Shown: positions 18,601 to 63,410 of the stretch, in pieces
How the letters are laid out: the number at the start of each line of letters is the position of its first letter
Position numbering within the stretch: the first letter of the stretch is position 1
Made by a program: the position numbers and the translations under genes
NCBI GenBank assembly: GCA_903813345.2
Contig: CAIIXF020000005.1
Location: 22,323,375 to 22,387,374 of the forward strand
Direction of reading: 5' to 3'
DNA from: Owenia fusiformis
Lineage: Eukaryota > Annelida > Polychaeta > Sabellida > Oweniidae
DNA length: 64,000 nt
Notes under the pieces: model-generated
The model's input: the letters and a program-made list of their open reading frames with translations, nothing else
What the model was told of the DNA's origin: nothing
Database searches by the model: none

Positions 18601-19740
18601 ATCAGAGGAAGCAGAAGTCTATTTCAAGTATCAGTCTTGACATGACACAGAACAGTTTGTGTCCTTCTGACATACAGATACGATGGTCAAGGTTTGCATT
18701 TGTATTGTTATCAGTTCCAGTAAAAAGTACAGATATACATATACAAAATATATACATTGTATATTACACACAAAATATTCTTGTTTCTGGATCACACTGC
18801 CTTGTTACAAAAAATGTCTAGAAAAAGATGAATTTTAAATAAAGGGACCATGAAACAAAATTTTTTTCCTGACCTTATGGTGAAAAGAATGTTATTCCAG
18901 CTTAACAGAGTCACATTTGTCTTATAACCTTTCTTTCCTTTGAGAATTGAAATGAAATAATTGGAACTGAATCTTTATCAAAGTAGTAAAACTCTTCTAA
19001 TTTCCAATTCATTTATTTCTAACAGATTTCCCTTTCTATCACTTTTCTATTCTTTTGTTTATGTTATTCTTTAGGTGATAGGCAACATGTCTCCTTTTTG
19101 CAATTACAGAGCACTTGAGATAAATTTTCAATTGTTTTAACTCATTGGCTTCTACAGGTTATAAAGCACATGTTTATATAACATTAACAGCTGTATAAAC
19201 ACAACAAGATTTATTTAGTTTTTCATTAGAAGAATCTCAGGTTTTGATAATTCTAAATATTGTTTTAAGGAGTTTATTAAGGGGTCTATTGTGATTGTTT
19301 CTATTATTCAAGGAGTCTCCTTTGTTTCTGTTAATCCTCTTATATGTACCTTATCAGCAATTTGTGTTAATCCTGTGTTATTATGCTCTTATAATGTTTG
19401 TTAATCCCTTGTTATGGCATTCTTGGAGCATTTAGCTTCTGAGACAGGGCTATAAATGAATTGTCATGGTGACCCCATTTTAAATGTGAAATATAGTTAC
19501 AAATAGTGATGCAGTTCAAATGGAGGGAATAGACATAAAGCAAAAAATTATACAGAAATGCAAGAAAATCATATATACTTCTTTCTAATTTAACATTTTA
19601 GAGTTGAGTAGAATAAGCTTGTTATTTTAAAGGCACATTTCTGAAGCTATTGGTCAATATATATATATCTTTTATTGACTCTTTTAGATGTCATATCAAT
19701 GACATATTAGTCACTAAGGTAGAGCATTTCTTCCCATTGT
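15601..19740. other. Non-coding stretch with two weak copies of the dispersed repeat
   Basis: No gene recognised. Degenerate copies of the dispersed repeat appear at about 16130-16235 ('aataaaatgaatagacatgaag') and 19475-19640 ('acagaaatgcaagaaaatca'). Everything else is plain AT-rich sequence. Confidence 0.4.
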
Positions 19741-33000: not shown

Positions 33001-33510
33001 TGTGCCTTATGGAGATCTAGTACTGAATAAATGATACTTACTTTTTGGAGCAGGCAGATATGTTAGAATTATCAAGAAATTCCAAGCCAACAAAGTCTAT
33101 CAATATGTTTTTTCTTATGTAATTACATTTATTAAAGTTAAATAGTTGTAGTAGTAGTTTGTAGTGTTTTAGTGACTAATGTATCATGTAACTGATATAA
33201 ATTGTCAATAAAAGATATAATAATAATGTAGATGTTGGAGGTTTATCTTTAGAGTATTTTGGTTTTTCTGTGATTATTTCTTTATTTCTGTTGAAAATAA
33301 TTGAATTTTATAATGATGTCCTGCACATGTGGAGATTCTCCTTATTACTTTGATGATTATGGGTGATTAGTCTAAGAAGCCATATAGATACAGGAGCAGG
33401 TGAAGGACACATCAGTCCACATCATGTGTATACATCAAAGAATTCAAACTTAAATCTTAAAAATATGTGTATAATGAAAGGTAGGTTATAATTGATAAGA
33501 TGCAAGATTC
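30003..33510. other. Non-coding stretch
   Basis: No gene recognised. It includes an 18-bp perfect inverted repeat at 31076-31140 and a poor copy of the dispersed repeat at about 31290-31435 ('cattcaaaatctagagagaa'). Confidence 0.4.
31076..31140. repeat. 18-bp perfect inverted repeat
   Basis: atacctatgatgatgtat (31076-31093) and its exact inverse (31123-31140) enclose a 29-bp loop. The words cctat and ataggttgta recur just downstream to 31171. Confidence 0.75.
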
Positions 33511-33876
33511 CTGCACTGTCACCCCGGAATAGCCTGACAACTGTAAAGTCAGATACTGTTGTCACAAATGGCGGACATAACCGTCACTTCAATTAGATTT
33601 TCATGAACTGTATGTTTAATAGAGCACCTAGACTAAATTCCTTTGGAACAACAATCAATCAAAGTGTCTTAATACTCATTGAACAGTTAATAATGTTCTA
33701 CAACATGAGATACGGGACAACGGACACTGTAATTACGATATGCCTTTGTCTTTCTAAATTACTCAAATTCAGATTCCGTTGTCAACGACGATATCGAAGA
33801 CGCTATATTGTTGTGATTCACGACCCAATTTGATCGAAATTGGGATTTCATATGAAACATCATCACAAGAGCTTAA

Positions 33877-34571
33877 CCTTTAGCGTGCTCTTGGCGGACT
33901 CGTCCGCCGAGACTAAAATGTCTCTCACAACTGTCGGCGGACCCGTACGCCCGATTTCAAACTTTTAAAAACTTTACTTTTTCGCGCCATTTGTATTGTC
34001 CAATTAGATTGCCCGATTTATTCAGTGCCTAACATGACTTCCTGTTGACCTAGAAATGGCGATATTTCGAAAAATAATTCTCAATTCAACAATTTGAACA
34101 GTGTTTTAGTCGTTTTTAGTAAACGAATCGTACAAAATGGTGGACAAATACGATCACAACGAAAATGTGGAGGAAATAGATTACGATTTCGAGCTCTTTA
34201 GGCTCTTGGAAGCCGATAACGGTCATCGAAAATAGAAACTAGAATATTTTCTGAATTGAAAAATTGAACATTCGATCGCTGCAAATTCAGATTTGGATTC
34301 TGACCAGACGAAGAGGCGGAGCGGCGGATTCCGGAGGAGTATTCATGGTATATTTATGCCCAGTCGTGTTAATGTACGAAAAAATTCATGAGAACATTTT
34401 TTTTCATGAGCCAGGCCACTGTATCTTCCCTTTGTGAAAATTTTATCCAGATTCATTCAGTAGTTATTGAGATATTAATTATTTAGTCCAGGCATATCAT
34501 TTTTTGCACTCTTTGAAAAATAAGCCAGTTGCGTGGGATATATTTGCTGAAATAAGGCAGCATGGTAAAGG
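33877..34571 (+). mobile_element. Non-autonomous piggyBac-type element, TTAA-flanked
   Basis: TTAA (33873-33876) precedes cctttagcgtgctc, and the inverse of the other end is cctttaccatgctg, followed by TTAA (34572-34575). The TTAA duplication with inverted ends beginning CC is the signature of piggyBac transposons. The subterminal part has a gcggacTCGTCCGCcg palindrome (about 33894-33910). Near the middle a short ORF (34137-34235) may be a remnant of the transposase N-terminus. At 695 bp it cannot encode a transposase. Confidence 0.8.
34137..34235 (+). pseudogene. Short acidic ORF inside the piggyBac-type element, possible transposase start relic
   Basis: ATG followed by 32 codons with an acidic composition (MVDKYDHNENVEEIDYDFEL...), then TAG. 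Acidic N-termini are common in piggyBac transposases, and its position after the left end fits, but there is no diagnostic domain. Confidence 0.3.
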
Positions 34572-34889
34572 TTAATACATGCACAGAATTTTAGCGACGA
34601 TAAAATCCCATGAACTGAGGACCAAGTGATTAAACAGTTGAAGTGACGGTTATGTCCGCCATTTGTGACAACGGTATCTGACTTTACCGTTGTCAGGCTA
34701 TTCCGGTGTAACTGTAGAAGTAATGTTTTTAACCTTTATTATGGAGGAACATGAAATTATGTTCATCTGGGGACACATATGTATGCTAATTATCAACATG
34801 GGATATGAAATATATCCAGATTATTGTCATGAACCTATATCTATAAATAATATCTTATATTGGAAGGGGTAATATTTTTAAACTTAAAA

Positions 34890-35010
34890 AAAGAATAAAT
34901 ATTCAAGTTGGAAACAAGGAATTAAGTGAACACATGAAGTACATACTCTAAATTATTTAGAAATGCCAAACAATCAGACACTTCAGTTAAGAGAGAAATT
35001 AGACAGATAT
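34890..35010 (+). repeat. Dispersed ~200-bp repeat, copy near 34.9 kb
   Basis: 'caaggaattaagtgaacaca', 'tgaagtacatactctaaatt', 'tagaaatgcc' and 'aatcagacacttca' in order: a good copy of the central part. Confidence 0.75.
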
Positions 35011-40185: not shown

Positions 40186-41301
40186 ATGACACCAGCGATG
40201 TCTTTTTACAAATTGGCTGCCATTTTCTCACTTGGGGCATCATGGGTTTCATCTGTAGAGATCGTAAATACATTTCAAACATATGACCCATCAGTGACGT
40301 TTAATCACATGGCAATTGATGAGAACACTGGGAAGGTATACATAGGTGGCATTAATAGGCTATACCAGCTCCAGAATGATTTATCGCTGGAAGTTGACAT
40401 TGTGACAGGTCCTGAGCTTGACAATCCACAGTGCCAACCCCATGTGACATCATGTGCCTCTTCAAAGTTTTTAACAAACAACCACAATAAAGTTTTAGTT
40501 ATTGATGAAACTAACAATCAACTTATAACTTGTGGGAGTATATTCCAAGGAACCTGCCAGGTGCGCAGTCTTGGAAATATCACAGATTCAACAGCGTATC
40601 TCTCTAAAGATGAGTATTACATTGCGGCCAATAATGCGACTTTGTCAACTGTAGCTTATGTGGTTCCTGGACCAGATTCCAGAACGTATCTAAATGTTGC
40701 GTCAAGTTTTGTGAAATTAACCAAGGATGTAGTGTTCAGAGATGAAGTTCCTGCTGTTAGTACTAGAATACTAGATATATCAGGAAGATATATGTTTAAC
40801 TACGCACACTTAGTGGAAGTCAGAAATCTTGGGTCTCGGATATTTATGGACAAAAGTGTACGAGATACGTTCATAGTACATTATGTAACAGGATTCGCTA
40901 CTGATAAACATAACTATTTCTTATCTGTACAGAAAGAATCCACAGACATTAACGCAAAGTATGTTTCTAAATTGATACGACTCTGTCAAAATGATGATTA
41001 TTATAGATCATATACTGAGATACCCATTGAGTGTGGCGATTACAATCAAGTCCAGGATGCCCATTTTGTTAAGCCAGGGTCAACCCTTGCCAGAAATATG
41101 AACATTTCTAGTGATGATAATATCTTAGTGGGTGTGTTTGCAAAAGGGAATGGCCCATTTAGTGTGACATCATCAGTGGCTGTTTGTTTTTACTCCCTAA
41201 GTGAAATTACAAGCAAGTACACCTTCAATATACAACGTTGCTACCAGGGATCTGGGGAACGTGGAAAAAAGATCCTACCAGCTGTAGATGGATGTTTGAT
41301 T
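40186..41301 (+). CDS. PLXNB: Plexin exon 1: signal peptide and most of the sema domain
   Basis: 372 codons, phase 0 end at gtaagt. After a hydrophobic leader ([14 protein letters not shown]) comes the sema propeller: [21 protein letters not shown] is the first blade, the plexin wording NRLYQL is typical, and paired cysteines at PQC...SCAS and [13 protein letters not shown] follow the family pattern. The exon closes with [11 protein letters not shown] and DGCL, which match the plexin sema end region. The reading frame runs on to 41400 only because the intron happens to be open. Confidence 0.95.
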
Positions 41302-44300
41302 GTAAGTTTAATTATACCACCGAATGAAGTTCGTGGGGGATATAGGAAGCTGTCCATTCGTCTGTCCTTTTGTCTGTCTGTTCGTTTGTCTATGCTATAA
41401 CTCAAATACTGATTTACGGATATGATTCAAATATTTTAGACCTCTGCTCGAGAAGCAATTTTCAACGGACACTCAATTCAAAATGGCTGTCATTTTTCAT
41501 TAAAGAATGTAATATTTGATAACTCAAATACCAGTAGATGGATTTCGTTCAAATTTTATGTGCTGATTCCTGGTGAGATTTTCAAGATGGTCACTGAATT
41601 TCAAAAGTTCAAATTTTGTGTTCTGATGCCTAGGGACAAAGGAGTTTTGCTTGGGAAGAGATTTTCAAGATGGCCTAAAAATTCCAAATTGGCTGCCTGT
41701 GCCATTTTTCTTAAAAATGTAATCTTTGATTACCAGTTGACGGATTTTTTCCAATTTTTTATACTGATGCCTAGGGACACGGGATCTCGTTCAAGAAGAA
41801 ATTTTCAAGATGGCCACTTCTGAAAATGATTTGTTCGTTGGGACTTGCTACTCCGTGGAGTTACTGTTTCCTAGTTGATAGTTAATGAAAGTGAATGAAA
41901 ACACAGAACGAAATCCTATGCTAATACAAATATGTATATAATATGCAATATTCTACTTTAAAAGTTCTTAACTATATTGCAGGAAGCTAGCACATCTGTG
42001 ACTGATGATTTCTGTGGAGATGGTACAAACTCACCAATAGGTGGAACCACTGCCATTCGATCTGAACCTACACACATAGATGCCAATCTTACTTCAGTAA
42101 CTGTTACTACATCAGCTACGCACACCATTGCCCATCTTGGTACAAAAGATGGGCATCTAAAAAGAGTACGTTTTTTTAAAGATTTGGAATGAGTGTTAAT
42201 ATTTGAAATTTTTGATCCTAATTAGTCATATGAAATATCTAAATGGATCAAGAAGAAAGTGCATGTTTACTTTTGATGACTTTTCTTCTTTTTTTCTTGC
42301 TTCACATCTCAAGACCCCCCCCCCCTCAAGGACTTGAAGCAAGGGTATAACTTTAACATCTTTTGACTTGTACTTCTTCAACTTAATCCCCATCAGACAC
42401 ATTTATTTATTCATTGTTTCAGGTGTTACTGACAAATGCAGGTGAGGCTGTGGAATATGCTGACATCTCGGTTGACTCTGGTTACCCTGTCAGCCAAGAC
42501 ATGAAGACAGATCCTGATGTAGAAAACATTTATGTGATGACACAGCACAGGGTAGGTTTGTATAAAGTAACACAGGCACAGTTTTTAGAACATATTGCCA
42601 ATTGAGTTGTACAAGGGCAGTCTCCCAGGATATTGTTCAACTGTATTGTTTGATCATGAGATGTATTGATTCTCTAGATGTATTCTTCTTTTCAACTTAG
42701 TTAGACAATCAACATTCTTGGTTTATTTTGTAAGTTGAACACATTTACAAAAAAATTGACAGAGAAAAACATTTGGAATTTTTCAAGATTTTTTGCACCC
42801 TAAATGACATCACAATTTTTTTTAATATGCTTAAACATTTAAGTAAATTTGGTTAGAAATACAAAGTTACTAACACTCTCAATGTACAATTTCAAATATT
42901 TTTGACAATATTAAATCATGTACCAGTTTCTTTTATATAAATACATGTATTTAATATTTAGGTGAGCAAAGTTGCCTTGGAAACATGTAGGGAGCATACA
43001 ACATGTGATAGTTGCTTGGCAACTAAGGACCCTCATTGTGGATGGTGCTCTCTTGAAAACAAGTAAGTTAACAACCAACTGTATTGAAAGCATACTAATT
43101 TATTCATTTATTCTGATTCAAAATGTCACTATTGAATTTATATACTTTCTCATTCATGCGGTATCACAGTGTTTGTTCTGAACACAAGAGTCATACCAAT
43201 TGGTGATCTCTAAGTTGGTGTCATATCTTGTAATTATTTCACATTTACAAGTGGTGACATATTGTTATGGTCTCCGTTTTTTTGAGGGCGGTTGTTGGTT
43301 GGTGGTCTGCGGTTGGCGATCGACGTCCTTAACAAATTCTTACAACTTCCAATAACTTAACAAATACTGTTTAGACTGACTTCAATTTTTTCAAAATCAT
43401 CTACAAGTTTTCAGAAGTTTAAATCTGACTTAATATTTTTTAAGAGGTCAAAAAGGTCTTTTTTCAACTTTCTTCAAATTGACCTTTTTTTCAAAATCAT
43501 CTACAAGCTATCAGAAGTTCAAATCTGACTTAAGATCTGAGATTTGACCTTCAATGACCTTCTGAAGGTCAAAAAAGGTCAAAAGGTCTTTTTTCAACTT
43601 GCTTCAAATTGACCACTTTTTTTCGAAATCATGTACAAGTTCTCAGAAGTTCACATCAGGCTTTACATTTGACCTTCAATGGCATTCACAAGGTCAAAAA
43701 AGATATGACCTTCAATGACCTTTCCAAGTTCAAAAAGGTATTTTTTCAACTTGCTTCAGATTAATTTTGACCAAAGTTTTTTTAAGATCATCTACAAGTC
43801 ATCAGAAGTTCAAATCTGGCTTAAGATTTGAGATTTGACATTATCAGAAGTTCAAATCTGACTGAAGATCTGAGAATTGACCTTCTATGACCTTCTCAAG
43901 GTCAAAAAAGGCCAAAAGGTATTTTTTCAACTTGCTTCTTATTGACCAATTTTTTTCTTCAATGACCTTCTTAAGGTCAAAAAGGTCTTTTTTCAGCTTG
44001 CTTTAAATTGACAAATTTTTTTAAATGATCTACAAGTTATCAAAAGTTCAAATCTGACTTAAGCTTTGAGATTTGACCTTCAATGACCTTTTCAAAGTCA
44101 AAATATGTATTTTTTCAACTTGCTTCAAAAAAGGTCAAAAGGTCTTTTTTCAACTTGGTTCAAATTGACCAATTTCTTTCAAAATCATCTGCAAGTTCTC
44201 AGAAGTTCACAACTGGCTATAAATTTGACCTTCAATGACATTCTCAAGGTCAAAAGGGTATTTTTTCATTTTGCTTCAAATTGACCAGTTTTTTTCAAAA

Positions 44301-47300
44301 TCATTTACAAATAGTTTTTTTTTCAGAAATTCACACTGACTTTAGATTTGAGATTTCACCTTCAATGACCTTCTCAGGGTAAAAAAAGTATTTTTCAACT
44401 TGCTTCAAATTGAATAATTCATTTTTTCAAAACCATCTACAAGTTCTCAGAAATTCAAACGTGACTTAAGATTGAACTCATAATATTGTGAGCAACTAGG
44501 TGGTGACATTTTGTCATGTTAATGCCTTGTTTTGATTTGGTATGATAGTGCTTAGTACATCCCCAATATAAAATTATCATACATTCAAGGATCTTACTAG
44601 AATGAATTGTTTTTGGGCATATATGAACCAGAAGAGGTGTTTTTTAAATACTTCAAAAGGAAAAAATATTATTCACTGTACTGTAGAGTAAATAGCTAAT
44701 CTGTCTCAGGTGAGAAGACACTTATATTCAGGTAGGTAGTCAGGTGATACACATGGCCAGGTAGATTCACTAACAGATTCATCTAGCAGGTGTATAAATA
44801 ACACTCTGATATCTTATCCATTGACCCTCAAGACCACCTGGTTGATCCAAGATGTTCACAAATATTCACTTTTAACAAATCTGCTGGAAATTCGGAAAAT
44901 TCATGAGAGGTGATTTTGGGTAAGAACTATAAATAAATGATTAACATCCATTACATCAATAATTTTTCCATTAATAATTGCTTAGATTTCGAAGTAGCTT
45001 GATTGTTATATAATTTGCTTGATTGTTATATCATTTGCTTGATTCAGGAATATCCTTGAAATGATGCAATGTTATTTGGACATGTTTTGAATGCAAAATA
45101 AAGTAGAAAAGGATGGAAACAGCAAGGATTAAAGCACACATGCATGTCATATTTAGTGTTATTTACTCTAAATTGTATAGAAATGCAAGAAAATGAGACA
45201 CTTCATTCAAATTCTAGAGAGGTATTACAGGAAAAAGCATGGGTAGACAGACATTTTGAGGAAGAACAGACTCCCAGGGCAAGGTGTAAAAATTGCTGGT
45301 TAATATGTTATTCTTGACATCTAATATGTTGATTTTGACAGTTTAACTTGTTATTTTTGACATACAAACCTCTCCTTTATTCACTGAACCCCTCTTAAGA
45401 AAGCCTATTATCTTAAACTCCCGGGTATCTTTTACAGAATATTTGTTTGACTTAATTGGATATATTTTTGCTTTTAGCTCTTTCTTGATAGTAGACAAAT
45501 ATCCCTTTCACTTGAAACAAGTCTTGCATGTTGAATTTAAGATTAATTCACAATCTGTCTCAAAATTTTGCACTTCATTTTAAACTATGAAAATCAAAAA
45601 CTGTCTGAGTATGAGGTAAAATTCTTGTTATTGACAAGCTGATAAATTGCATTGGTCACTCAGGGCTGTTGAGTTCTCATGTTCTGAAGTTCTTTAAAAC
45701 ATATGTTTTCTAGAAACAATTAGTTCCACAGACTGCATTCTAAAGTCTAAGATAACCTGAATATTTTTGCCAATGACGTTAGGAAATGTATATCTTCGTT
45801 TAATTAGCTTTGAGAGAGAAAGACAGGTTGGGTGTTTTGTGTATTAGCCTACCTCAAAATAAAATATTACTAAAAAGAAAGCATTCTAAGATATCTGACT
45901 GAACGGTGGTTTTATTTATACAATATGGCATTTTAAAGTTGAAGAGATACTCATGTTGGCCAAGATTTTTTATTCAAGTTTGATATGGTTGGTAGGTGTT
46001 GTGTTGCGGTATTTCCAGTTTGCTGTAAGTTTAATGTAAGGGTACCCTTGGCTAAAATGTGATGGTGGTCACATTTTCAAACTAGAAATATTGTAGAAAA
46101 GAATAGAAGTAACAATAAATGAACTATACATGCATGAAATGCTAACTCTAAATTGTAGAAGAAGACAGGAAAATCAGACACTTCTTTCAAATTTTTAAGA
46201 GATCTTTGAGAAGAAGTATTGAGCAGATGGACAGTTCAAATTTGGAGAGTTCTGACATTTAGAATGTCTTGTGAATACCTTTCAAGTCTCATCCCTGCAG
46301 AGCATAACATTCATTCTTCTTTTAGTATGTTCATTTACATCTATCTTACTAATGTACCTGTATATATTACTAGTTGGCAAAGTGAGATTCAGGAATGTCA
46401 GAATACATAAAGTGAAGAGATGGAACTTTTGAGTCAATTTCTGTTTTGGAAATTGAGTCATTATGGCTGGCTTCCATTTTACTTTCCATAGCTGGTATAG
46501 TTGAGATTCCTTCAGGTGAAATAGTTACCGTATTCTCTGTAATTAGCGCCCAGGGCGTTTAGAAAATTGAAAATACATTATTTAGACCATTCTAATAAGC
46601 GCCCATGTATGAAAGGAATCAGAAATCCCGAGGAATTTCATGTATGGCAATTTTTCTTGACAAGAATGCATTTTCTTCAACATATTTTTATAATAATATG
46701 ACAAGTGCTGTTATTGGAGAGAATACGGTAAAGATCGCTTAGACAATATTGACAGTGGTTGAAGACCCGTCTATGTCTAATTTATTTCCGGCACGCCCAC
46801 TTTGTCATTATCGCCGATTACCTTCAATATTTCCACTAGAGACTGCTGGATATCGATCTAAAGTTATACATTATTTCTAATTTGATGAGAGATCATCATT
46901 ATTCGTGCAAAAGTCGTGTAAAAGTCGAGAAACATGAAAAAGAAACCAGAAAGTTCACGACCTTGACATGCGCAGAACATCTGCGCAGTAGCTTTTGAAA
47001 TTTCTGAATGCCGATAAAGAACAATTCCTTCATTCATTATGGATTATTATGATTCCTCAATGTTTCTTGAACTTTGTGAAGCGGGGTGGGCGCTTATTAG
47101 AGAGTGGGCGGTAATTACAGAGAATACGGTACATGTAATTATAAAATAGTTTTTTGTTCAGTTCAAGGAGTTATCAACAAGGAGTTACTCTTAAATTACA
47201 TATTGAGGGTGGTTCATAAATTAAGGTGCACTTTGATCTCATTTGAAAAGTATACATTCAATCAGTGTTAAATTTTCAGAGTTGATGATTTATGGAAGTG

Positions 47301-56300: not shown

Positions 56301-59300
56301 AAACCTTGCATCGTCCTTGAGGAAAAATATGAAATATCAAAAAAGTAAGTAAATAGTATCTAAAAGATTTGTCCCTAAATGTTGGTCCTGTCTTGCATGC
56401 AAATATGCCACTTGAAGACTTTTTAGTTCTAGTATCATTCTAAAAGATTTGCTTGTGAACATGACAAAGGCACACTTTTATTCATAATTCTGTTCAATAA
56501 ATATGATTTTTTTTATTTTGCTCAGGATTGTATGCAGAACTGGCAGTGCTCAGGTGAAGTCTGGTACTGTGAAAGTTTCAATAGGTGGCAACACTGTCAC
56601 ATGGCCCAAATTCCACTATAAGGTAATAAAAATATAATCTGCATTATCCTATTTATTGCATCATTTCTATTTCTAAAGCAATACAAAGTACTGTAAAACA
56701 TTTGCTTTGAATTCCCATTCTCTATGCACATACAGCTTATAACAAGACTAGCTTTCAATTTTATCTTATTATCGTTTTATCTCAATTAGGTCACCGTTTT
56801 TATAGCTAGTATATTACTAAAGGGCTAATTGGAAACACCTTAACATCTTAATTTTATTATTCAATACAATTTCTGAATTCTGAAATGAAAACTAAAAAGA
56901 AAGGAAAGATGACAGCAGTGTGTAATTCATCAGCCTGTGTAGCCAGAAAAAAAATTAGATTTTGTGAAGCTTGTAACTGAGGTGCCTTATATAGAAGCTC
57001 ACATCTGAGCTTTATTCCCAGTTTATATGCGGCACTACATGCAAAAACTTGTTCCAGGATCCCAAGATTTTGAATGTGCTGCCATCTAAAGGTCCAAAGT
57101 CTGGAGGCTCTAAGATCACAATCACTGGGAATGACTTTGACACTGGCAACTCTGTACATGTCAATATTAAAGGAGTAGCCTGCCCTATTGTAAGGTAATG
57201 GAATATTCTCAATTACCCTTTGTTTTGTAAGCTACATTTAACATTATATCCCAAGTTAGCATTTATTGTCTGATTATAGCTTTCTCCTTATTAAATGTCT
57301 TCACACCAAAATAATCCTGATCTATCAATTCATTATATTCAATTTGGTTGTGCTAGAAACCATTTACTGGGTGAAGGTTTCATAAATAAAAAGATCGGTC
57401 TTAATATCAATACATTTTAGGGGGACCCTTGAAGCCAACAGATTGGTGTGTCTCACTGGCAGAGTCCCAGTGGCCGCAACAAAGAAAGAATATGTTTGGA
57501 TGACGTTTGATGAGCAGACCCCTCGTACTAGTGAACGACCAGCCTTTATGTATACAGAAGACCCTGTGGTCACACTTATTTCTCCATTGGTCTCTTTTGC
57601 AAGGTATCTCATTAATATTGTTATTACAACTTGCTCAAGTACTTATTCTTGACTTAAAAATTGTTTTAAGTTTCATTTTAATGTGCACATGACTGACATT
57701 AAAATGCCCTCAAATTTCATTTACCTTGAGTTTTCTAAATGGATATATCCAAATAGTAATTACATAAATAAATAATACGATTTTAGAGAGTTATGTGGAG
57801 CATCGGTAGAAGACAGATGCACAAAAATATTTACTATATTTACTATATTTTATAATTTATTGTGTTAAACAGTGGAGGAAGGATGATAACAGTAACTGGA
57901 AGTAGTCTAAGCTCTGTTCAGTACCCAGAGATGTTCATTGTATCGAATGGAAGGCGCTCAAACACAACAGTAAGAACCTATTTGAATTAGAAATGTTCCT
58001 TAGTTACCATATTTATTTTTCAAGTTTTGGGTTTTGTTCAACATTATTGAATTCTTTTAAGGTCTGCTCCATATTGGCTGACACTAAGATGAAATGCCCA
58101 ACGCCAGAGGCCCCACAAGACATACAATCATCCCTCCTGAAGGCACCTATCGCTAGAGATAGGAGACAAACAACACCAAATATGGTAGAGGTCGGGTTTA
58201 TCATGGATGGAGTATTAAATGTTCAGAATTTGACACAAAACTTTCCCGATGTTGATGCAACCATTGAGTATGTGATCGATCCAAAATATGACCAGTTCGT
58301 TGACAATAAGAAGGTGCACAAAGGTTCCTCCCTAATATTAGAGGTATGTTATATGTTAATTCCTGAGTGTTTTTCATTTGTCAGGCCTGTAACACAGTTG
58401 TAACTGAAAATCTTTGACTCTTAGTATCAGCATTGGCCCTCTAAGTTGGGTATAACTAGTAAATCATTTTCTGACTGGTGATGAAATGTTCACCTTTTTG
58501 TACTGGTCCCTTCCCTTACCCAAATTAACATCAATATAGATTGAAGAAATGAGCTGCTTAGTTTATGAGAAATAAGATGCTGCATTCAGTGGGATGAGAT
58601 GCACATATAATGCTTTGTTACATTTAAAGCATTTTGTTACTTTCAGGGCAATAATCTTAACATTGGGTGTACAAAGGATGACGTACATGTTAAAATAGGC
58701 AAAAGTGACTGTGATGTGACGTCATTAGCACTGTCCCAGCTCGTATGTACACCCCCTGAGACACAACCTCTGGCCATTGATGAAGATGGCAAAGAAATAC
58801 CCGATAAACTACCTGAAGTCACTGTATGTTTTTTTATGTATAAAGTATTTCACTGATAGAATTGTGATGTTACTGTTCATGCATTTCTTTACATATATCA
58901 ATAAATCTTCTCAATTAAGTCCATCCCAGGCAGGGTCAATCTAAATTGAATTTAAAATCCTATATTATACACTGATATTGTATTGACTAAATAAAATATA
59001 TAATAAAGAATTAAACATGATCATATTTTAATACTATAAATATGTGCTATAAAGTAGGCTTTTGCATATTGTATATGAACTTGTAGTTTTAAACAAATCT
59101 TAACTTTCAAAAATAAACATTCTTCATTTTTTACTTCCAGGTGTATGTTGGCAACCTTATATTCAAGTTAGGTGAACTGGAGTATGAAATCCTACTGCCA
59201 TATACTTTCCCCCTTGAGGCCATCATTGGTATATGCACTGGCGGGGGCTTCTTGATCCTTGTTATCATTATCATTTGTGTTGTGTATATGCGTCACAAAA

Positions 59301-62300
59301 ATCGGGCAAAGCGGCAATACAAGAAGATTCAGATCCAGCTTGATACGCTAGAGAGTAACGTCCGTAATGAGTGTAAACTTGGTGGGTATTTTTCCGAAAT
59401 TCAGTTATCTTTCTATTATTATACACGTGTATCGTACTGTCATAATAATTACACAAAGTTGTATGTATTTCAAGACTGTATTGTCTTAACTATGCAATCT
59501 TGTACCTGTTTCTAACTAATTCTTCTTTTTAACATTCCACCATTTTCAATTTCCTGAAAAGTCCTCTTGCGAATGAAAACCTAACTGATTAAAATTGTCC
59601 TCCAGAAGTTGGCCATTACTGGTTGACAATTGTATCATAAATGGTCTTCCTGTGCAATGGATTATGGGAACTTACACAAATGGTGGATTTTCTTGTCATT
59701 GACATGTTTTGTGTTGTATTGCCTTTAGCGCTCACTCATTGACACAATAATCACACCATTCCTACCCATGCAGAAATATTTTCAAAATTATTTCTGATCT
59801 GATGAAATAGCATTCTGAGATCTTAAGTTTGGCACATTTTTAGGGGCTGTATTTACATCCCCAAAATTTGGATTATTTCAATGTGATTCTAGATTCAAAA
59901 TTGCTATATCACCGCAGAACAGGTTGTTATGAATTTGAATTTGTTATGGATCAGATGTTGTAATTACAATTTTTATGAAAATAAGTTTATCTGCATGAGA
60001 AGGAGTAAGCAATCATCTAGTGCCTTAAGAGCTAACATCTTGCTATATTACACAACTAAGATTTAAAAACACTTTGATACACCCAATTTCAATGTAAATA
60101 AAGAATATAATATTGTAAATTAATATTTCTATTCTGTTTGATCATTTGCAATTGCATAGTTATTTGCATAATTTTCCTACCCATTGCATGTCTGTTGAAT
60201 GTTTGCCATTTTGAATGACGGCCATTTTGAATGTCGGCCCTTTTCTTTTTTAAAGCCTTTGCCGAGCTGCAAGCAGATCTATGCGCGTGTGAAAATGAAC
60301 CTTTATTAGGGCGGCAAGGTACCCTGCCATTTTAGATAGGTGGCGCTAGGCTTGCTCTTATAGGTGGCAATGTAGCTTGCGTGTGGGTTCGGTGGCTTGC
60401 AGTGCATTATGGGTGCTTCCCACCCACCCACCCATTTAAGTAAACTCTGGGTGCTGTACAGATTAAGTCCCTTATTGATATTTCAATTCTTTTCCCGTAT
60501 TATAGTTACTCATCTCTTTTTCTATAGTTTTCATATACCATAATTAACTCCATTTATTTAGGTTATTTTCAGGGGCTGCAGTAATGAATCTCTTTTATAA
60601 TTATAAAGATGATAACATAATTCAAAAACTGATTTTAATTCGCTTTTTATTGAACAAATAAATAGACATACATGTAGTGAATATCAGTATACATATATCA
60701 CTTGTGGTATATGTGCAATTATATATTAATTAATAGTAATTCTGGGAGATAAGCTATTTTAATGAGAGTAGAATGCACTTCTAGAATCACACTTCATTTA
60801 ATGTACACAAAAATCACATATACAGAACAAATCAATGCACATCCATAAATAGTTCTAAACATTAGTTGCACAACTCTTGTAACATAACTTTTCTCACTTC
60901 TGTATCACATCTAAAGAAATCTAGATATAACTCCCCTGAGTCTTAAAATAATATAATGTAGAAATAATCCTCATTGTTATCTCTAAAATTAAAGTTACCA
61001 AATAATAAGTTAATAGCATGGGGCAGCATTAAAGGGATCTTAGGTTGCAAGCATGCATGCTCAGAGCAATTTAAATTGCATGCGCGGAGGGTGGTTTGCC
61101 TCAAAGGTAATATAGCGCTGCATGGAGGGTGGTTGGCTGTTTATAATTGAAATGTCTCACTGGTCATGTTTTTCTGTGAGATAATATCAAAAATTTAGTG
61201 AGATGAGCAAGGAATTAAGTGAACAGGGACATAGAGCATACTTATAATTACAGTGTACATTGGAATGCCTGAATCAGATCAGATGTTTCATCTAAATTTT
61301 TGAGAAAAAACTCATGGAATAAATTTGACTAGCGAAGAAAATTGTGATATTTCAAATATTGGGAACTTTGTGTGTAAAAAGGGTGTTGGTCAATAACTTG
61401 CATGTGTTTGTTTGTTGTGTGTGTTCCATAACAACATTATTCCATCAAATACATTTTATTTTAATTATTAACACGCCTGGTGATCGGACAGAATGAACGG
61501 AAGGGGAATGCTACACAGGCCGTCCAACTGTCCCGCAATTTGCGTATTTGTCACGCATTTGCTGGAAAATTTGAAGTCACGCCAGTTTTTTTTTCGTGAC
61601 AGAGTATGTCACGCAAATACGCATTTTACCTGATTATTGTCCAGCAAAAATATTCCTGTAGAAAAAATTTCAAAAAAGATTGGCGATACACCACAAACTA
61701 AACTTAACTAAAAAAAACTAAACGCATTTCGTTCTGACTTTTCAAGCGGATACCGTATATGTCACGCATTTTGCCTGAAATTTTTCATGCCTACCCCCCA
61801 AGGGAAAAATTATGATTGAATTACAAAATGAATAGGTTCATGGTATGGTGAATTATGTTAGGTTTTCCAGGATTTTTTGAGGCGATGGGCTTCTAAGATA
61901 TGAGATCTATTAAAAAAGGCACATCGTCATCAATTTGCAAAAGTCAATCTTTTTGCTATAAATCAAGCAACAATGGTCTACACGATCTGTAATAAATATC
62001 TCAAATCTTAAATGCCCATTGGTAAGAAAAAAAATCAAAATCACCTAACATATTTAGCTTACCGAGCACCTGTTATTAAGCAATTCAATCAGAATTTTTC
62101 TATTCAAAAAATGAATGTTCCAGATTTGTTGAATTTTCTTGCAGAAATCGCTGCATTACCCCTCCGTTCTTTCTGTCCAATCACCATGCATGATTAAGTA
62201 TAATTGTGAGGCCTGTACAAAAAGTTTTGAGAATTATTGAAATTTCTAAATGGTAATTTATGGTTGTAGCATTTGCTGAGCTCCAAACTGAGATGTCTGA

Positions 62301-63410
62301 TGTGACCAGTGATTTGAGTTCCCAGGGCATACCATACTGGGACTATAAGACATACACTATGAAGATACTATTCCCAGGTCAAGTTGAGGCACCTCTGCAG
62401 TTTAAACCTGATGTAAGTCTTAAATAATTATCATATTAATACTCTATTTGCAATGTTCTCCTCAGTTTTATATTTCACCCAGTTTAAAATTATACAATAA
62501 ATGATATATTTTTATCATACCTGAATAAAAGTATGAAATTGTTGTCATTTTGTCTATTTTTGTAAATGTTTTTTTTACCCAGTTGAGGATATTTCTTGTA
62601 GGTGAAACTTGTGAATGCAACTGAAGAAATTCTAAGCAAGATACTGATTTTTGTACATTATGCCTCTGAGTGTACAGTGTAGTTCATAAGTTCAACTCAC
62701 ACATTTATTTACAGGGACGTCAGAGCAAGGTCATCAACTTTGAGCATGGCATGCATCAATTTTCCCAACTACTGTGCAACAAACATTTCCTTAAACTTTT
62801 TATACGCACCCTGGAGGCCCAGAAAACATTCAGTATTAGAGACAAGGCAAATGTTGCATCTTATCTGATGATCTTTATGCAGGATAAGATGGAATATGCC
62901 ACTGAGGTTCTTAAAGGTTAGTGTTCCGTTGTAGCACTTGATTACACATATTATTAGATTTAAGTTATGATTTTTATGTGTGATTTTTCCATGAATATAG
63001 ATGGATGGGCGTTGGCTCAAAAACCTATTATTTACACTTAAATACCACATCAAATATTGATTCGTACATAGTATTTTAGTAATACTTGAAAAATCAATGG
63101 TGGAATCTTCTCAATCTATTCAGGTATTTCTTGTGTTATTGAGTTAGACTGCATTCTTATGTTCCATATCATAAAATTATAACTAACATTTGCTTGTGGT
63201 GTCATAGTGCATATAAATACTGCATTTATGTTTTATTGAAATTAAGTTTTGAATTTAAAATTGACTGCATTTTCAGAACTGATGGAAGAGTTGATTAAGA
63301 AAAATTTAGAGAAAAAACAGAATCCTAAGTTGATGTTGAGACGTACCGAGTCTGTAGTTGAAAAGTTGCTAACAAACTGGTTGTCACTCTGTATGTACAA
63401 TTATCTAAAG
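40186..63410 (+). CDS. PLXNB: Plexin receptor, probably plexin-B class (3' part beyond window)
   Basis: Plexins are single-pass semaphorin receptors that turn ligand binding into Rap-GAP and Rho signalling in axon guidance and cell migration. I joined 22 coding exons with consistent phases: 40186-41301, 41983-42165, 42423-42551, 42962-43062, 49706-49832, 53300-53462, 53731-53827, 54156-54270, 55187-55291, 55400-55507, 55703-55796, 56023-56344, 56526-56622, 57058-57194, 57421-57603, 57873-57969, 58062-58343, 58647-58823, 59141-59381, 62270-62412, 62715-62916, 63277-63410. They give 1451 residues: signal peptide (about 1-24), sema (to about 475), PSI1 (about 485-520), PSI2 (about 638-665), PSI3 (about 784-820), four IPT domains (about 825-1210), one membrane helix (about 1236-1258) and the first GAP segment with the RR of LMLRRTES. 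A full plexin has about 1900 residues, so roughly a quarter is missing. The class B call rests on [27 protein letters not shown] and a furin-type RDRR at 1090-1093; 'plexin' itself is certain. The start is ATG 40186; ATG 40198 would still leave a signal peptide. Confidence 0.93.
41314..41875 (+). repeat. TCCG/ATGGC minisatellite element in plexin intron 1
   Basis: It begins 12 bases after the splice donor with accaccgaatgaag and gggggatataggaagc, then a short TCTG/TTCG tract, then about four diverged units with 'gataactcaaataccag', 'atgcctagggaca' and 'caagatggc'. It ends with tcgttgggacttgctactcc. Both ends match the copy at 230-290 and 1115-1945, which shows that the family is one element with defined ends. 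Confidence 0.8.
41983..42165 (+). CDS. PLXNB: Plexin exon 2: sema domain
   Basis: 61 codons, phase 0 on both sides (ttgcag / gtacgt). [14 protein letters not shown] and [15 protein letters not shown] match the conserved plexin sema stretch that ends in a G-T-x-D/S-G-x-L/I motif. Confidence 0.95.
42423..42551 (+). CDS. PLXNB: Plexin exon 3: end of the sema domain
   Basis: 43 codons, phase 0 on both sides. [11 protein letters not shown] is the last sema strand (family wording: L-Y-x-M-T-x-x-x-V). Confidence 0.94.
42962..43062 (+). CDS. PLXNB: Plexin exon 4: PSI domain 1, first part
   Basis: 33 codons plus 2 bases. The cysteines of [21 protein letters not shown] are those of a plexin-semaphorin-integrin domain. 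It ends at a strong donor (aa then gtaagt). Confidence 0.95.
43330..44475. repeat. ~120-bp minisatellite rich in AGGTCA/TGACCT words, plexin intron 4
   Basis: About nine diverged units, each with 'ttttttcaacttgcttcaaa', 'ttgaccaattttttt', 'aaaatcatctacaagtt', 'cagaagttcaaatctgactt' and 'tgaccttcaatgaccttctc' followed by 'aaggtcaaaaaggt'. Unit length varies because of internal deletions. The part with tgacctt and aaggtca is the most conserved. Confidence 0.88.
45085..45265 (+). repeat. Dispersed ~200-bp repeat, copy near 45.2 kb
   Basis: The most complete copy: 'gaatgcaaaataaagtagaa', 'aacagcaaggattaaagcac', 'tactctaaattgtatagaaa', 'tgcaagaaaatgagacactt', 'cattcaaattctagagaggt' and 'agcatgggtagacagacat'. 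Confidence 0.8.
46080..46240 (+). repeat. Dispersed ~200-bp repeat, copy near 46.2 kb
   Basis: 'tacatgcatgaaatgctaac', 'tctaaattgtagaagaagac' and 'aaatcagacacttctttcaa' in order, with the end reading 'gagcagatggacagtt'. Confidence 0.75.
46526..47131. mobile_element. TA-flanked MITE with 26-bp inverted ends
   Basis: TA, then ccgtattctctgtaattagc at the left; the right end is its inverse (one difference in the first 26), followed by TA. Another inverted end (ggagagaatacggta, to 46728) lies inside, so one element may sit in another or a shorter version forms the left third. No coding potential. A TA duplication suggests mobilisation by a Tc1/mariner-type transposase. Confidence 0.8.
47205..47848 (+). 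mobile_element. Decayed mariner/Tc1-type transposon
   Basis: Inverted ends of about 40 bp: gagggtggttcataaattaa with ggtgcactttgatct at the left, and the inverse at 47810-47848 with a few changes; TA lies next to both. The middle (about 47530-47665) reads, with one stop, as a stretch resembling a transposase helix-turn-helix: GKTQLDTQ...[16 protein letters not shown], where VxxWYKxFK is the typical end of the mariner DNA-binding region. The catalytic part is missing. Confidence 0.7.
48070..48225 (-). repeat. Dispersed ~200-bp repeat, inverted copy near 48.1 kb
   Basis: On the - strand: 'agcaaggaatcaacaaacta', 'gacataaatcaacacattaa', 'agaaatgaaagaaaatgaga', 'cacttcattgaaatgttaga' and 'gagatatggcatggaataag'. 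Confidence 0.75.
48690..48865 (+). repeat. Degenerate short tandem repeat of ccataccaaatg words
   Basis: About seven irregular copies of 'cataccaaatgtc' or 'cataccaatg' words at spacings of 15-40 bases. The ORF across it (48622-48864) is a by-product. Confidence 0.55.
49258..49600. repeat. 75-bp dimeric minisatellite (40 + 35 bp), about 4.5 copies
   Basis: Two related half-units alternate: one with 'gggatacagaaccatagaca' and 'accacgggacaacattg', one with 'gtgatgcagaaccataaaat' and 'gggacaacattg'. The higher-order unit of 75 bp is divisible by 3, so up to four frames are open. It lies about 110 bp upstream of plexin exon 5. Confidence 0.93.
49706..49832 (+). CDS. PLXNB: Plexin exon 5: end of PSI 1 and linker
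   Basis: It completes K510 and carries CSTKADC, the last PSI cysteines, then [13 protein letters not shown], as usual between PSI1 and the next module. It ends in phase 0 (acg then gtaaat). A 6.6-kb intron precedes it. Confidence 0.9.
50395..50545 (+). repeat. Dispersed ~200-bp repeat, copy near 50.5 kb
   Basis: 'aagcaaggaatgaagttaac', 'aggcaagaaattaatactct', 'gtattcaaatttcagagaga' and 'aatgcaatggaataagcata', then 'agcagatggacatttta'. Confidence 0.78.
51069..51222 (+). repeat. 31-bp minisatellite, 5 copies
   Basis: Unit of 31 bp containing ccatggtaattcatgatggg and ggtagggtt, with few changes between copies. Confidence 0.9.
52645..52805 (-). repeat. Dispersed ~200-bp repeat, inverted copy near 52.7 kb
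   Basis: On the - strand: 'atcagcaaggaataaagtaa', 'ataggcacacagctaatatt', 'agaaatcaaagaaaatcaga', 'cactttattcaaatttttga' and 'gagaaatagcacaagcaaat'. Confidence 0.75.
53300..53462 (+). CDS. PLXNB: Plexin exon 6: Ig-like/IPT-type linker before PSI 2
   Basis: 54 codons plus 1 base. [13 protein letters not shown] and [14 protein letters not shown] follow the plexin pattern of a strand-loop-strand module (Y-x-C-x-F, then G-x-x-C-x-T/S-P-P). Confidence 0.9.
53731..53827 (+). CDS. PLXNB: Plexin exon 7: module leading into PSI 2
   Basis: Reads [20 protein letters not shown] then FFNCGVHT, matching plexin D-H-V-x-V-x-L-x-V-R-S and F-Y-D/N-C-S-V-H. It ends after 2 bases of the next codon at caag/gtatat, the first of five copies of this donor. 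Confidence 0.9.
53819..54000 (+). repeat. 38-bp tandem repeat that includes the exon 7 splice donor, 5 copies
   Basis: Unit ttcatacaaggtatatacaa plus tacatgatgtcatatctg. The first copy starts inside exon 7, so the exon end and donor (gt at 53828) are repeated at 53866, 53904, 53942 and 53980. Use of any later donor would pass the TAA met within 6 bases of the intron start. Confidence 0.93.
54156..54270 (+). CDS. PLXNB: Plexin exon 8: PSI domain 2
   Basis: [21 protein letters not shown] shows the PSI cysteine pattern C-x2-C-x6-C-x2-C-x5-C. Phase 0 at its end (gag then gtatgt). Confidence 0.93.
54795..54960 (-). repeat. Dispersed ~200-bp repeat, inverted copy near 54.9 kb
   Basis: On the - strand: 'tgaaattagcaaggaatgaa', 'ataaacaggtatgtagttga', 'tactataaattgtataaaga' and 'cagttcaaattttagaggga'. 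It lies within plexin intron 8. Confidence 0.75.
55187..55291 (+). CDS. PLXNB: Plexin exon 9: start of the module after PSI 2
   Basis: 35 codons, phase 0 on both sides. [20 protein letters not shown] and [11 protein letters not shown] match plexin C-P-R-L ... I-T-L-x-x-x-N-L-P-x-P. Confidence 0.93.
55400..55507 (+). CDS. PLXNB: Plexin exon 10
   Basis: 36 codons, phase 0 on both sides. [11 protein letters not shown] and ELQCHAN are the paired-cysteine strands known from plexins (G-Y-x-C-x-L-x-I ... V-x-C). Confidence 0.93.
55703..55796 (+). CDS. PLXNB: Plexin exon 11
   Basis: 31 codons plus 1 base. It starts [20 protein letters not shown], like the plexin Y-x-Y/F ... V-x-V-x-W-N stretch that ends this module. 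Confidence 0.92.
56023..56344 (+). CDS. PLXNB: Plexin exon 12: PSI domain 3 and IPT domain 1
   Basis: [17 protein letters not shown] then [16 protein letters not shown] is the third PSI domain. [19 protein letters not shown] then [11 protein letters not shown] is the first strand pair of an IPT/TIG domain (I-x-x-I/V-x-P-x-x-G-P-x-x-G-G-T). Confidence 0.95.
56526..56622 (+). CDS. PLXNB: Plexin exon 13: IPT domain 1, end
   Basis: [20 protein letters not shown] and FHYK: C-x-T closing strands, phase 0 at its end. Confidence 0.92.
57058..57194 (+). CDS. PLXNB: Plexin exon 14: IPT domain 2, first part
   Basis: [20 protein letters not shown] then [17 protein letters not shown]. The acceptor used (gttccag, 57057) restores the family wording FHYK-DPKI; an earlier acceptor (attcccag, 57021) would insert 12 extra codons. 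Confidence 0.92.
57421..57603 (+). CDS. PLXNB: Plexin exon 15: IPT 2 end and IPT 3 start
   Basis: [20 protein letters not shown] closes IPT 2, and [19 protein letters not shown] opens IPT 3. It ends after 2 bases of a codon (aag then gtatct). Confidence 0.92.
57873..57969 (+). CDS. PLXNB: Plexin exon 16: IPT domain 3
   Basis: [20 protein letters not shown]: the S-G-G-x-x-I-T-V-x-G motif expected at this place in plexins. Confidence 0.93.
58062..58343 (+). CDS. PLXNB: Plexin exon 17: IPT 3 end, furin-type site, IPT 4 start
   Basis: MKCPTPEAP ends IPT 3. RDRR (residues 1090-1093, bases 58155-58166) fits the furin consensus R-x-K/R-R and sits in a hydrophilic loop; plexin-B1 is known to be cut by proprotein convertases in its ectodomain. 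[16 protein letters not shown] and [12 protein letters not shown] are typical plexin segments before IPT 4. Confidence 0.93.
58647..58823 (+). CDS. PLXNB: Plexin exon 18: IPT domain 4
   Basis: 59 codons, phase 0 on both sides. [20 protein letters not shown] then [11 protein letters not shown] continues KGSSLILEG from exon 17 as the G-x-N-L strand and C-x-P-P end of IPT 4. Confidence 0.93.
59141..59381 (+). CDS. PLXNB: Plexin exon 19: membrane helix and juxtamembrane segment
   Basis: 80 codons plus 1 base. Membrane helix [20 protein letters not shown] (helix continues VVYM), a basic stop-transfer run [12 protein letters not shown], and the start of the juxtamembrane helix [18 protein letters not shown], which agrees with plexin L-E-x-x-V-x-x-E-C-K. 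It ends in phase 1 (ttg then gtgggt). Confidence 0.95.
60256..60318 (+). CDS. PLXNB: Candidate plexin cassette exon (21 codons) with an acidic dileucine motif
   Basis: Preceded by a strong pyrimidine tract and acceptor (cttttcttttttaaag) and followed by caag/gtaccc. It enters and leaves in phase 1, so it can be included between exons 19 and 20 without a frame change. It reads [21 protein letters not shown]. The first nine residues match exon 20 (AFAELQTEM) while most third codon positions differ, as expected for an old duplication kept by selection. ENEPLL fits the sorting signal [DE]xxxL[LI]. If the donor is not used, translation stops at TAG after five more codons, giving a receptor without GAP domain. 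The donor is weak (C at +4), so expression needs proof. Confidence 0.55.
61190..61340 (+). repeat. Dispersed ~200-bp repeat, copy near 61.3 kb
   Basis: 'gagcaaggaattaagtgaac', 'gatcagatgtttcatctaaa' and 'ttttgagaaaaaactcatgg' in order, in the intron before exon 20. Confidence 0.7.
61516..61800 (+). mobile_element. CAGGCCTGTCAACT element, copy 3 (right end missing)
   Basis: Starts caggccgtccaactgtcccg, so its end has decayed by two changes. The gtcacgc/gcgtgac section and 'gcatttcgttc' words match copy 1 up to the C-run, where the similarity stops; no right inverted end is seen. Confidence 0.8.
62270..62412 (+). CDS. PLXNB: Plexin exon 20: juxtamembrane end and first GAP segment
   Basis: [20 protein letters not shown] then [17 protein letters not shown]: highly typical of plexins (D-L-T-S-D-L ... 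G-I-P-x-L-D-Y-x-x-Y-x-x-x-x-F-F/L-P-G). The pyrimidine tract before its acceptor (atggttgtag) is poor, so recognition may be weak. Phase 0 at its end. Confidence 0.95.
62715..62916 (+). CDS. PLXNB: Plexin exon 21: GAP domain, first segment
   Basis: [20 protein letters not shown] then [14 protein letters not shown] and [10 protein letters not shown] match the plexin L-L-x-N-K-x-F-L-x-x-F-I-x-T-L-E ... R-D-R-x-x-V-A-S-x-L motifs. 67 codons plus 1 base. Confidence 0.96.
63277..63410 (+). CDS. PLXNB: Plexin exon 22: GAP domain with the double arginine
   Basis: [20 protein letters not shown] then [17 protein letters not shown]. The RR pair corresponds to the catalytic arginines of plexin GAP domains, whose replacement abolishes activity in vertebrate plexins. 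[16 protein letters not shown] is the plexin-B wording (plexin-A: LLLRRTESVAEKMLTNW). Phase 0 end (aag then gtgggt); the following exons are outside the window. Confidence 0.96.

Follow-up and report, generated by a model that had tools for sequence, protein, structure and literature searches.

A candidate cassette exon at the juxtamembrane helix of a plexin gene of Owenia fusiformis, with a comparable copy in the homologous intron of its A-like paralogue

The window analysed here, a stretch of 64,000 nucleotides of the Owenia fusiformis genome, contains a plexin gene: the profile PF08337 matches its exons in a profile search, and its juxtamembrane peptide and joined exons match solved plexins. 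Genome-wide, PF08337 gives 12 matches, confined to two loci of C5, which leaves one other plexin besides the window gene. The exon that carries the membrane helix of the window gene, whose juxtamembrane peptide was identified by PDB comparison, is separated from the next one by an intron of 2888 nt (between 59381 and 62270), in which a first-pass annotation had placed an additional exon of 63 nt. Its coordinates, its frame, phase 1 on both sides and its position in an intron of ~2.9 kb are borne out by the sequence, and the feature is real and unusual. The elements discussed below are as follows (a slash marks a splice boundary):

59141-59381, plus strand: upstream constitutive exon with the membrane helix and the first part of the juxtamembrane helix; ends in ECKL plus 1 nt, phase 1 (ECKL G/gtgggt)
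60256-60318, plus strand: candidate cassette exon, 63 nt, phase 1-1, open frame; AG/CC at its start and AAG/GTACCC at its end
60256-60281, plus strand: copied part; read together with the final G of the exon before it, it gives AFAELQADL, the homologue of AFAELQTEM
60291-60308, plus strand: ENEPLL, an exact [DE]xxxL[LI] match; ENEPLLG resembles EETPILG of the paralogue copy
60319-60324, plus strand: weak 5' splice site GTACCC, score 1.13 (1/32 native donors as low)
60333-60335, plus strand: in-frame TAG, met when the donor of the 63-nt form is unused; the frame ends there
60383-60388, plus strand: better alternative donor GTGGGT, score 6.17 (6/32 native donors as low or lower)
62270-62412, plus strand: downstream constitutive exon, acceptor ttgtag/CATTTGCTGAG, ending in FKPD, phase 1 in and 0 out; taken as the source of the copy

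Splice-site scores were compared with those of native sites from both genes, 32 of each type (donors and acceptors), located near alignment ends with a seed matrix.

The other plexin is closest to class A plexins and is referred to here as A-like: its joined cytoplasmic exons reach 510.5 bits with Plexin-A1 versus 369.5 with B1, and its juxtamembrane peptide 90.8 bits versus 55.0 for Plexin-B1. The affinity of the window plexin (cytoplasmic exons 62272-69239) is mixed, the juxtamembrane part being nearest to Plexin-B1 and the remaining tail to Plexin-A1. Its juxtamembrane peptide matches Plexin-B1 best (81.4 bits, versus 74.0 for Plexin-A1), while its eight joined cytoplasmic exon pieces match Plexin-A1 best (444.7 bits, versus 407.1 for B1). 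As one of its exons taken alone also fits Plexin-A1 better (54.8 bits, versus 43.7 for B1), a class B label considered for the window gene was dropped. In that single exon (62742-62906) the two plexin genes are 52% identical, and they have thus long been separated. In the tree of a survey of plexin evolution, the A/B relations of protostome plexins were reported with weak support (PMC6374515).

Repeated elements were also observed in both loci. A related AT-rich repeat array lies at 43386-44355 of the window, with a TRF period of 157 at 43973-44280, and at about 33387-34894 of the oriented paralogue locus (C5:13295107-13296614). A dispersed element with the degenerate frame RNKVNRHEV..NC..M...YSNFRE, probably the remnant of a mobile element, was found in the window at about 15448, 23632, 25039, 37428, 39327, 45156 and 50456, and in the oriented paralogue locus at 18641 and 35741. 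In the locus of the A-like gene, GACGTTTCGTAGGATGTCCATCCTACTTC and its complement form an almost perfect inverted repeat (L004, 350-540), which looks MITE-like by eye. No Rfam family reached its gathering score in the window, and no signal of RNA structure was detected in the four stretches tested (z -0.94 to +0.85).

The candidate exon begins as the downstream exon does. The copied part is identical to the real exon at 18/26 nt, whereas the nucleotides immediately upstream agree at 5/20; past codon 9 only 8/30 nt are identical and there is no evident similarity to the source exon. By its sequence, 60256-60318 is an old partial duplicate of the start of the next exon, and the proposal of an old duplication that was kept is upheld by the comparison of AFAELQADL with AFAELQTEM, in which changes lean towards synonymous ones (see below). 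With a 271-nt query around the candidate, in a genome search that leaves out very common words, the sole match was the candidate itself. The segment combines homology to a neighbouring exon with a length that is a multiple of three, phase symmetry and an open frame.

The resemblance was set against several controls. When AFAELQ was searched in phase after the 6709 AGs of the window on both strands, the full score of 28/28 was obtained only at the real exon and at the candidate, the next best score being 20. Across the 498 Mb genome, AG followed by AF[AT][DE]LQ, a pattern widened post hoc to take in the paralogue copy described below, occurs at 16 places, four of which are the two canonical plexin exons and the two intronic copies. 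The introns of both genes were also scanned for copies of the first nine codons of the next exon (31 rows and 3433 AGs, of which 33 are counted twice; two rows have a common acceptor exon, a few span an unplaced exon, not all ends are exact and the rows leave out a few introns whose flanking exons were unpaired). The two intronic copies score 27 each, and the runners-up 17, with stop codons, and 16. As 27 is reached only in the homologous intron, the duplication appears specific to that intron in both genes, within the introns scanned. In favour of a chance resemblance within the intron it can be said that the paralogue copy came second and that the genome-wide pattern was then fitted to it; however, four of only 16 genomic sites fall in two plexins, and the next best scores remain far below those of the copies both in the window and in the intron scan. 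Chance was rejected on these three controls and is considered extremely improbable.

The A-like gene provides independent support for the duplication reading. Its homologous phase 1 intron (C5:13290241 to 13289077, minus strand) holds a similar copy (beginning AFTDLQTNIVSTIADVSAISAIY), which is phase-compatible at 69 or 120 nt. From C5:13290016 the copy reads AFTDLQTNIVSTIADVSAISAIYGGYSNIEETPILGVLLS, in an open frame of 112 codons, and the in-phase donors after 69 and 120 nt rank first and second among the 60 GTs of the intron. At the exon start, this copy is identical to its own canonical exon at 14/26 nt, against 7/20 immediately upstream. The two intronic copies agree with each other at 4/9 of the first residues and the window copy agrees with the canonical exons at 6-7/9; F, [DE], L and Q are retained in both intronic copies.

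Over the nine copied codons, in which synonymous sites make up about a fifth to a quarter of the sites compared, the window copy differs from its canonical exon by 4.5 synonymous and 3.5 nonsynonymous changes, the paralogue copy from its own by 8 and 4, and the canonical exons of the two genes from each other by 5 and 3. In the first six codons the corresponding counts are 3 synonymous and 0 nonsynonymous for the window copy, and 5 and 3 for the paralogue copy. In a simple simulation over 27 nt (400 runs per time), in which the canonical copy changed synonymously only and the duplicate was neutral, the observed combination was obtained in at most 1.5% of the runs for the window copy and in 0% for the paralogue copy at each time simulated. 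Taken by itself, the nonsynonymous count is unremarkable at short times and stands out only once about 0.5 to 0.8 substitutions per site have accumulated. Over these nine codons and with this simple model, the synonymous lean favours selection on the copied peptide. Codon usage was compared with that of open intronic frames (3/29 exon segments were left out for frame errors) and did not clearly set the copies apart: P was 0.09 in the window copy, and 0.05 (69 nt) and 0.11 (120 nt) in the two forms of the paralogue copy; for the tails alone, it was 0.55 in the window and 0.05 and 0.27 in the two paralogue forms.

These observations bear on the alternative that both copies are dead, unspliced exon duplicates in slow decay. 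Each copy is weak at one of its splice ends, its codon usage looks neutral, and the window copy has lost evident similarity to its source beyond codon 9, all of which would be expected of relics. On the other hand, the changes lean towards synonymous ones although the upstream flanks do not align, and the same segment has been kept in the same intron of two genes. We regard the relic explanation as unlikely.

The splice sites themselves are uneven. The candidate had been described as lying between a strong acceptor and a weak donor; the acceptor, with a score of 3.37, is in fact below average (6/32 native acceptors are as low or lower, and it ranks 17th among the 125 AGs of the intron), while the donor is indeed very weak and ranks 53rd among the 147 GTs. 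In the paralogue, none of the 32 native acceptors is as low as that of the copy (-0.17), which ranks 20th among the 47 AGs of its intron; the two donors, at 7.48 and 6.84, lie within the native range (15/32 and 10/32 native donors as low or lower). Weak splice sites would fit regulated exons as well as relics. The hexamer TGCATG, the RBFOX-type motif, occurs 7 times in the window intron (59382-62269), versus ~1.2 expected from the 30 copies in the 71-kb locus, a post hoc comparison; two copies precede the candidate, by 71 and 264 nt. The homologous intron of the paralogue contains a single TGCATG, 9 nt upstream of the acceptor of the copy. This excess could mark regulated splicing.

Splicing at 60256 could also lead to a different product. 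If the exon ran to 60382, it would be 127 nt long and would hold the stop, and such a poison exon, or a terminal exon ending at an intronic poly(A) site, would yield NMD or a receptor devoid of the GAP domain, acting in dosage control or as a decoy. The donor after 60382 scores 6.17 versus 1.13 for that after 60318, and the stop at 60333 is met on the way. The G+C content of the 150 nt past the candidate (60319-60468; 0.507) is equal to that of the candidate (0.508) and above that of the intron (0.337), which fits the 127-nt form or some other element; no unusual RNA fold was found in 60319-60468. AATAAA is present at 60657 of the window and, in the oriented paralogue locus, at 40295, but the signal is common in AT-rich introns, and 6 and 4 AATAAA/ATTAAA lie past the two acceptors. 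Furthermore, a poison or terminal exon would not need selection on AFAELQ, and the copy in the paralogue has a 112-codon open frame with two good in-phase donors. We consider this outcome improbable, slightly more so than that of relics.

A pair of mutually exclusive exons was rejected, since phases 1-1 and 1-0 make an in-frame replacement impossible. We lean, with moderate confidence, towards reading the 63-nt stretch as an optional (cassette) exon, born when the first part of the following exon was duplicated and made phase-symmetric by the gain of a donor. Homology, phase symmetry, single copy and the similar paralogue copy are features of the sequence, whereas inclusion in some mRNAs is inferred.

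If included, the cassette exon would insert 21 residues, as had been proposed from its 63 nt in phase 1-1. The further suggestion that these amount to three heptads, taken as an insert that preserves the helix register, was rejected: Pro and Gly occur in the window insert, and that of the paralogue would be 23 or 40 residues long.

The second half of the exon had been credited with an acidic dileucine sorting signal about 40 residues after the membrane helix. ENEPLL does match [DE]xxxL[LI] exactly, and its first E is residue 43 past the helix by our own count, the helix end having been placed by eye. It fits the acidic dileucine consensus [D/E]XXXL[L/I] as given in the source (PMC2882754) and would be cytosolic. 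A strict match is also present in 32 of 2041 open 21-aa windows of non-coding stretches. None was found in the eight translated downstream cytoplasmic exon segments of this partly assembled gene; one EYEILL, in the membrane exon, is on the extracellular side. Both tails carry a similar ExxP[LI]LG, and the ungapped alignment of ENEPLLG with EETPILG scores 23. This score was reached by 30/20000 shuffles of the 31-residue paralogue tail, by 193/10000 with the whole open frame shuffled, and by 10/1902 open 31-aa and 27/6133 open 12-aa real non-coding windows; when both tails were shuffled, 0/3000 reached it, which looks stronger than the fuller controls, and the latter are preferred. The paralogue motif thus lends the dileucine idea modest support, but EETPIL differs from the strict consensus (PMC2882754) and would be absent from the shorter 69-nt form. 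An acidic dileucine signal in the candidate exon is plausible on the basis of the motif.

The position of the copied piece in the protein can be approached through the active dimer of zebrafish PlexinC1, for which the structural passages of PMC3787391 describe a four-helix bundle core formed by Ile571, Ile575, Phe579 and Leu582, with Asp581 peripheral and Phe579, Gln583 and Thr584 touching the activation segment. The F-x-D-L-Q-T of PlexinC1 at 579-584 agrees with the motif F-x-[DE]-L-Q-T in its spacing (residues as named in those passages). In the PDB matches, position 5 of the PlexinC1 chain 4m8n is the partner of residue 8 of the juxtamembrane peptide, and position 31 that of the F of AFAELQ, which comes 26 residues later; as the spacing is the same in both, there is no net gap between the two pairs. 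If chain position 5 is residue 553, as the naming of Gln553 in the paper suggests, residues 579 and 582 correspond to the Phe and Leu of AFAELQ. As F, [DE], L and Q lie on this interface numbering and are kept in both copies, the copied piece would be, by numbering, the helix segment used in the active dimer, and the earlier placement of the candidate within the plexin segment controlling dimerisation is supported.

From this, a mechanism can be proposed. A partial exon duplication and a new donor would have produced a phase-symmetric exon. With the exon included, the membrane-side helix would run into an alternative AFAELQ with its interface residues intact, followed by a 12-residue acidic linker containing Pro and Gly and then by the normal AFAELQTEM leading to the GAP domain. 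The membrane helix would then be coupled less rigidly to the GAP domain, which would change dimer geometry and GAP activation, with an AP-adaptor (dileucine) signal through ENEPLL as a possible secondary effect; the paralogue copy would do likewise with an insert of 23 or 40 residues. According to Wang et al. (PMC3787391), GAP activation varies strongly with register in direct coiled-coil fusions, a shift by one residue can be accommodated, and activation is still possible across flexible linkers; the expected effect would therefore be a looser, less register-dependent coupling rather than a loss of activity. Single juxtamembrane substitutions have been reported, in passages of PMC4286236, to alter plexin oligomerisation and function.

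Among known systems, the closest analogue of the plexin copy appears to be the H2d-H2a duplication of COE/EBF, as described in passages of PMC2394523. There too, the exon of a dimerisation helix was duplicated within an intron; because its source lacked phase symmetry, a new donor was required, and both copies can be read in series. Unlike the COE copy, which is always included and vertebrate-specific, the plexin copy is short and seems to be optional, has acquired a new tail and is present in two paralogues. The conserved microexon of Robo1 and Robo2 (PMC6687390, in part) is likewise a small alternative exon in paralogous axon-guidance receptors, in a different receptor. Tandem-duplicated mutually exclusive exons, as outlined in passages of PMC9741552 and PMC9013439, resemble the plexin case in that a copy of a neighbouring exon is kept in the intron, but differ in that phases 1-1 versus 1-0 bar an in-frame swap here. 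In relation to the plexin helix described in PMC3787391 and PMC4286236, the insert would repeat residues of the active-dimer core and of the contacts with the activation segment; the juxtamembrane helix passages of these two papers mention no alternative exon. The chains of Plexin-A1, -A3, -B1 and -B2 run through the insertion point without an insert, among the matches listed. By titles and the starts of abstracts, no juxtamembrane alternative exon in plexins was found among the publications listed as matches, subscription literature and predicted-isoform databases being outside this scope, and the words intron and splic- are absent, by term search, from the main text of the survey of plexin evolution (PMC6374515). 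A scan of prokaryote genomes and viral contigs with the plexin exon alignment gave 83 and 75 pattern matches, none of which was confirmed; these collections contain no animals and a null result was expected.

The presence of the copy in both genes may be explained by inheritance from a common ancestor or by independent duplications, favoured by a useful helix start or a prone intron; this concerns the origin only, and either would be compatible with the cassette reading. The window copy resembles the canonical exons (6-7/9) more than the paralogue copy (4/9), and the lengths of the two inserts differ, as would be expected from independent events; against this, the copies share the same intron, the same phase and similar ExxP[LI]LG tails. 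Independent origin is a serious contender, to which we give somewhat less than an even chance.

A further-reaching interpretation, which we hold to be possible but rather unlikely, is that of an ancient splice switch at the junction of the membrane helix and the GAP-regulating helix, predating the duplication behind the two plexins of this animal, perhaps the A/B-type split. Its inclusion would duplicate the dimer-interface segment and bring in a linker bearing ExxP[LI]L; GAP activation would be uncoupled from the helix movement that the ligand drives, and the receptor would be rerouted, so that one gene would make both rigidly and loosely coupled guidance receptors. Dropping the class B label of the window gene made this interpretation slightly less likely.

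The activation of plexins is sensitive to the register of the juxtamembrane helix and to how straight it is, according to passages of PMC3787391 and PMC4286236. An insert occurring naturally at this site would offer a ready-made means of testing how the geometry of the membrane helix is transferred to the GAP domain, and a further level of regulation in axon guidance. Two long-separated paralogues sharing such an insert would argue for an old, selected switch.
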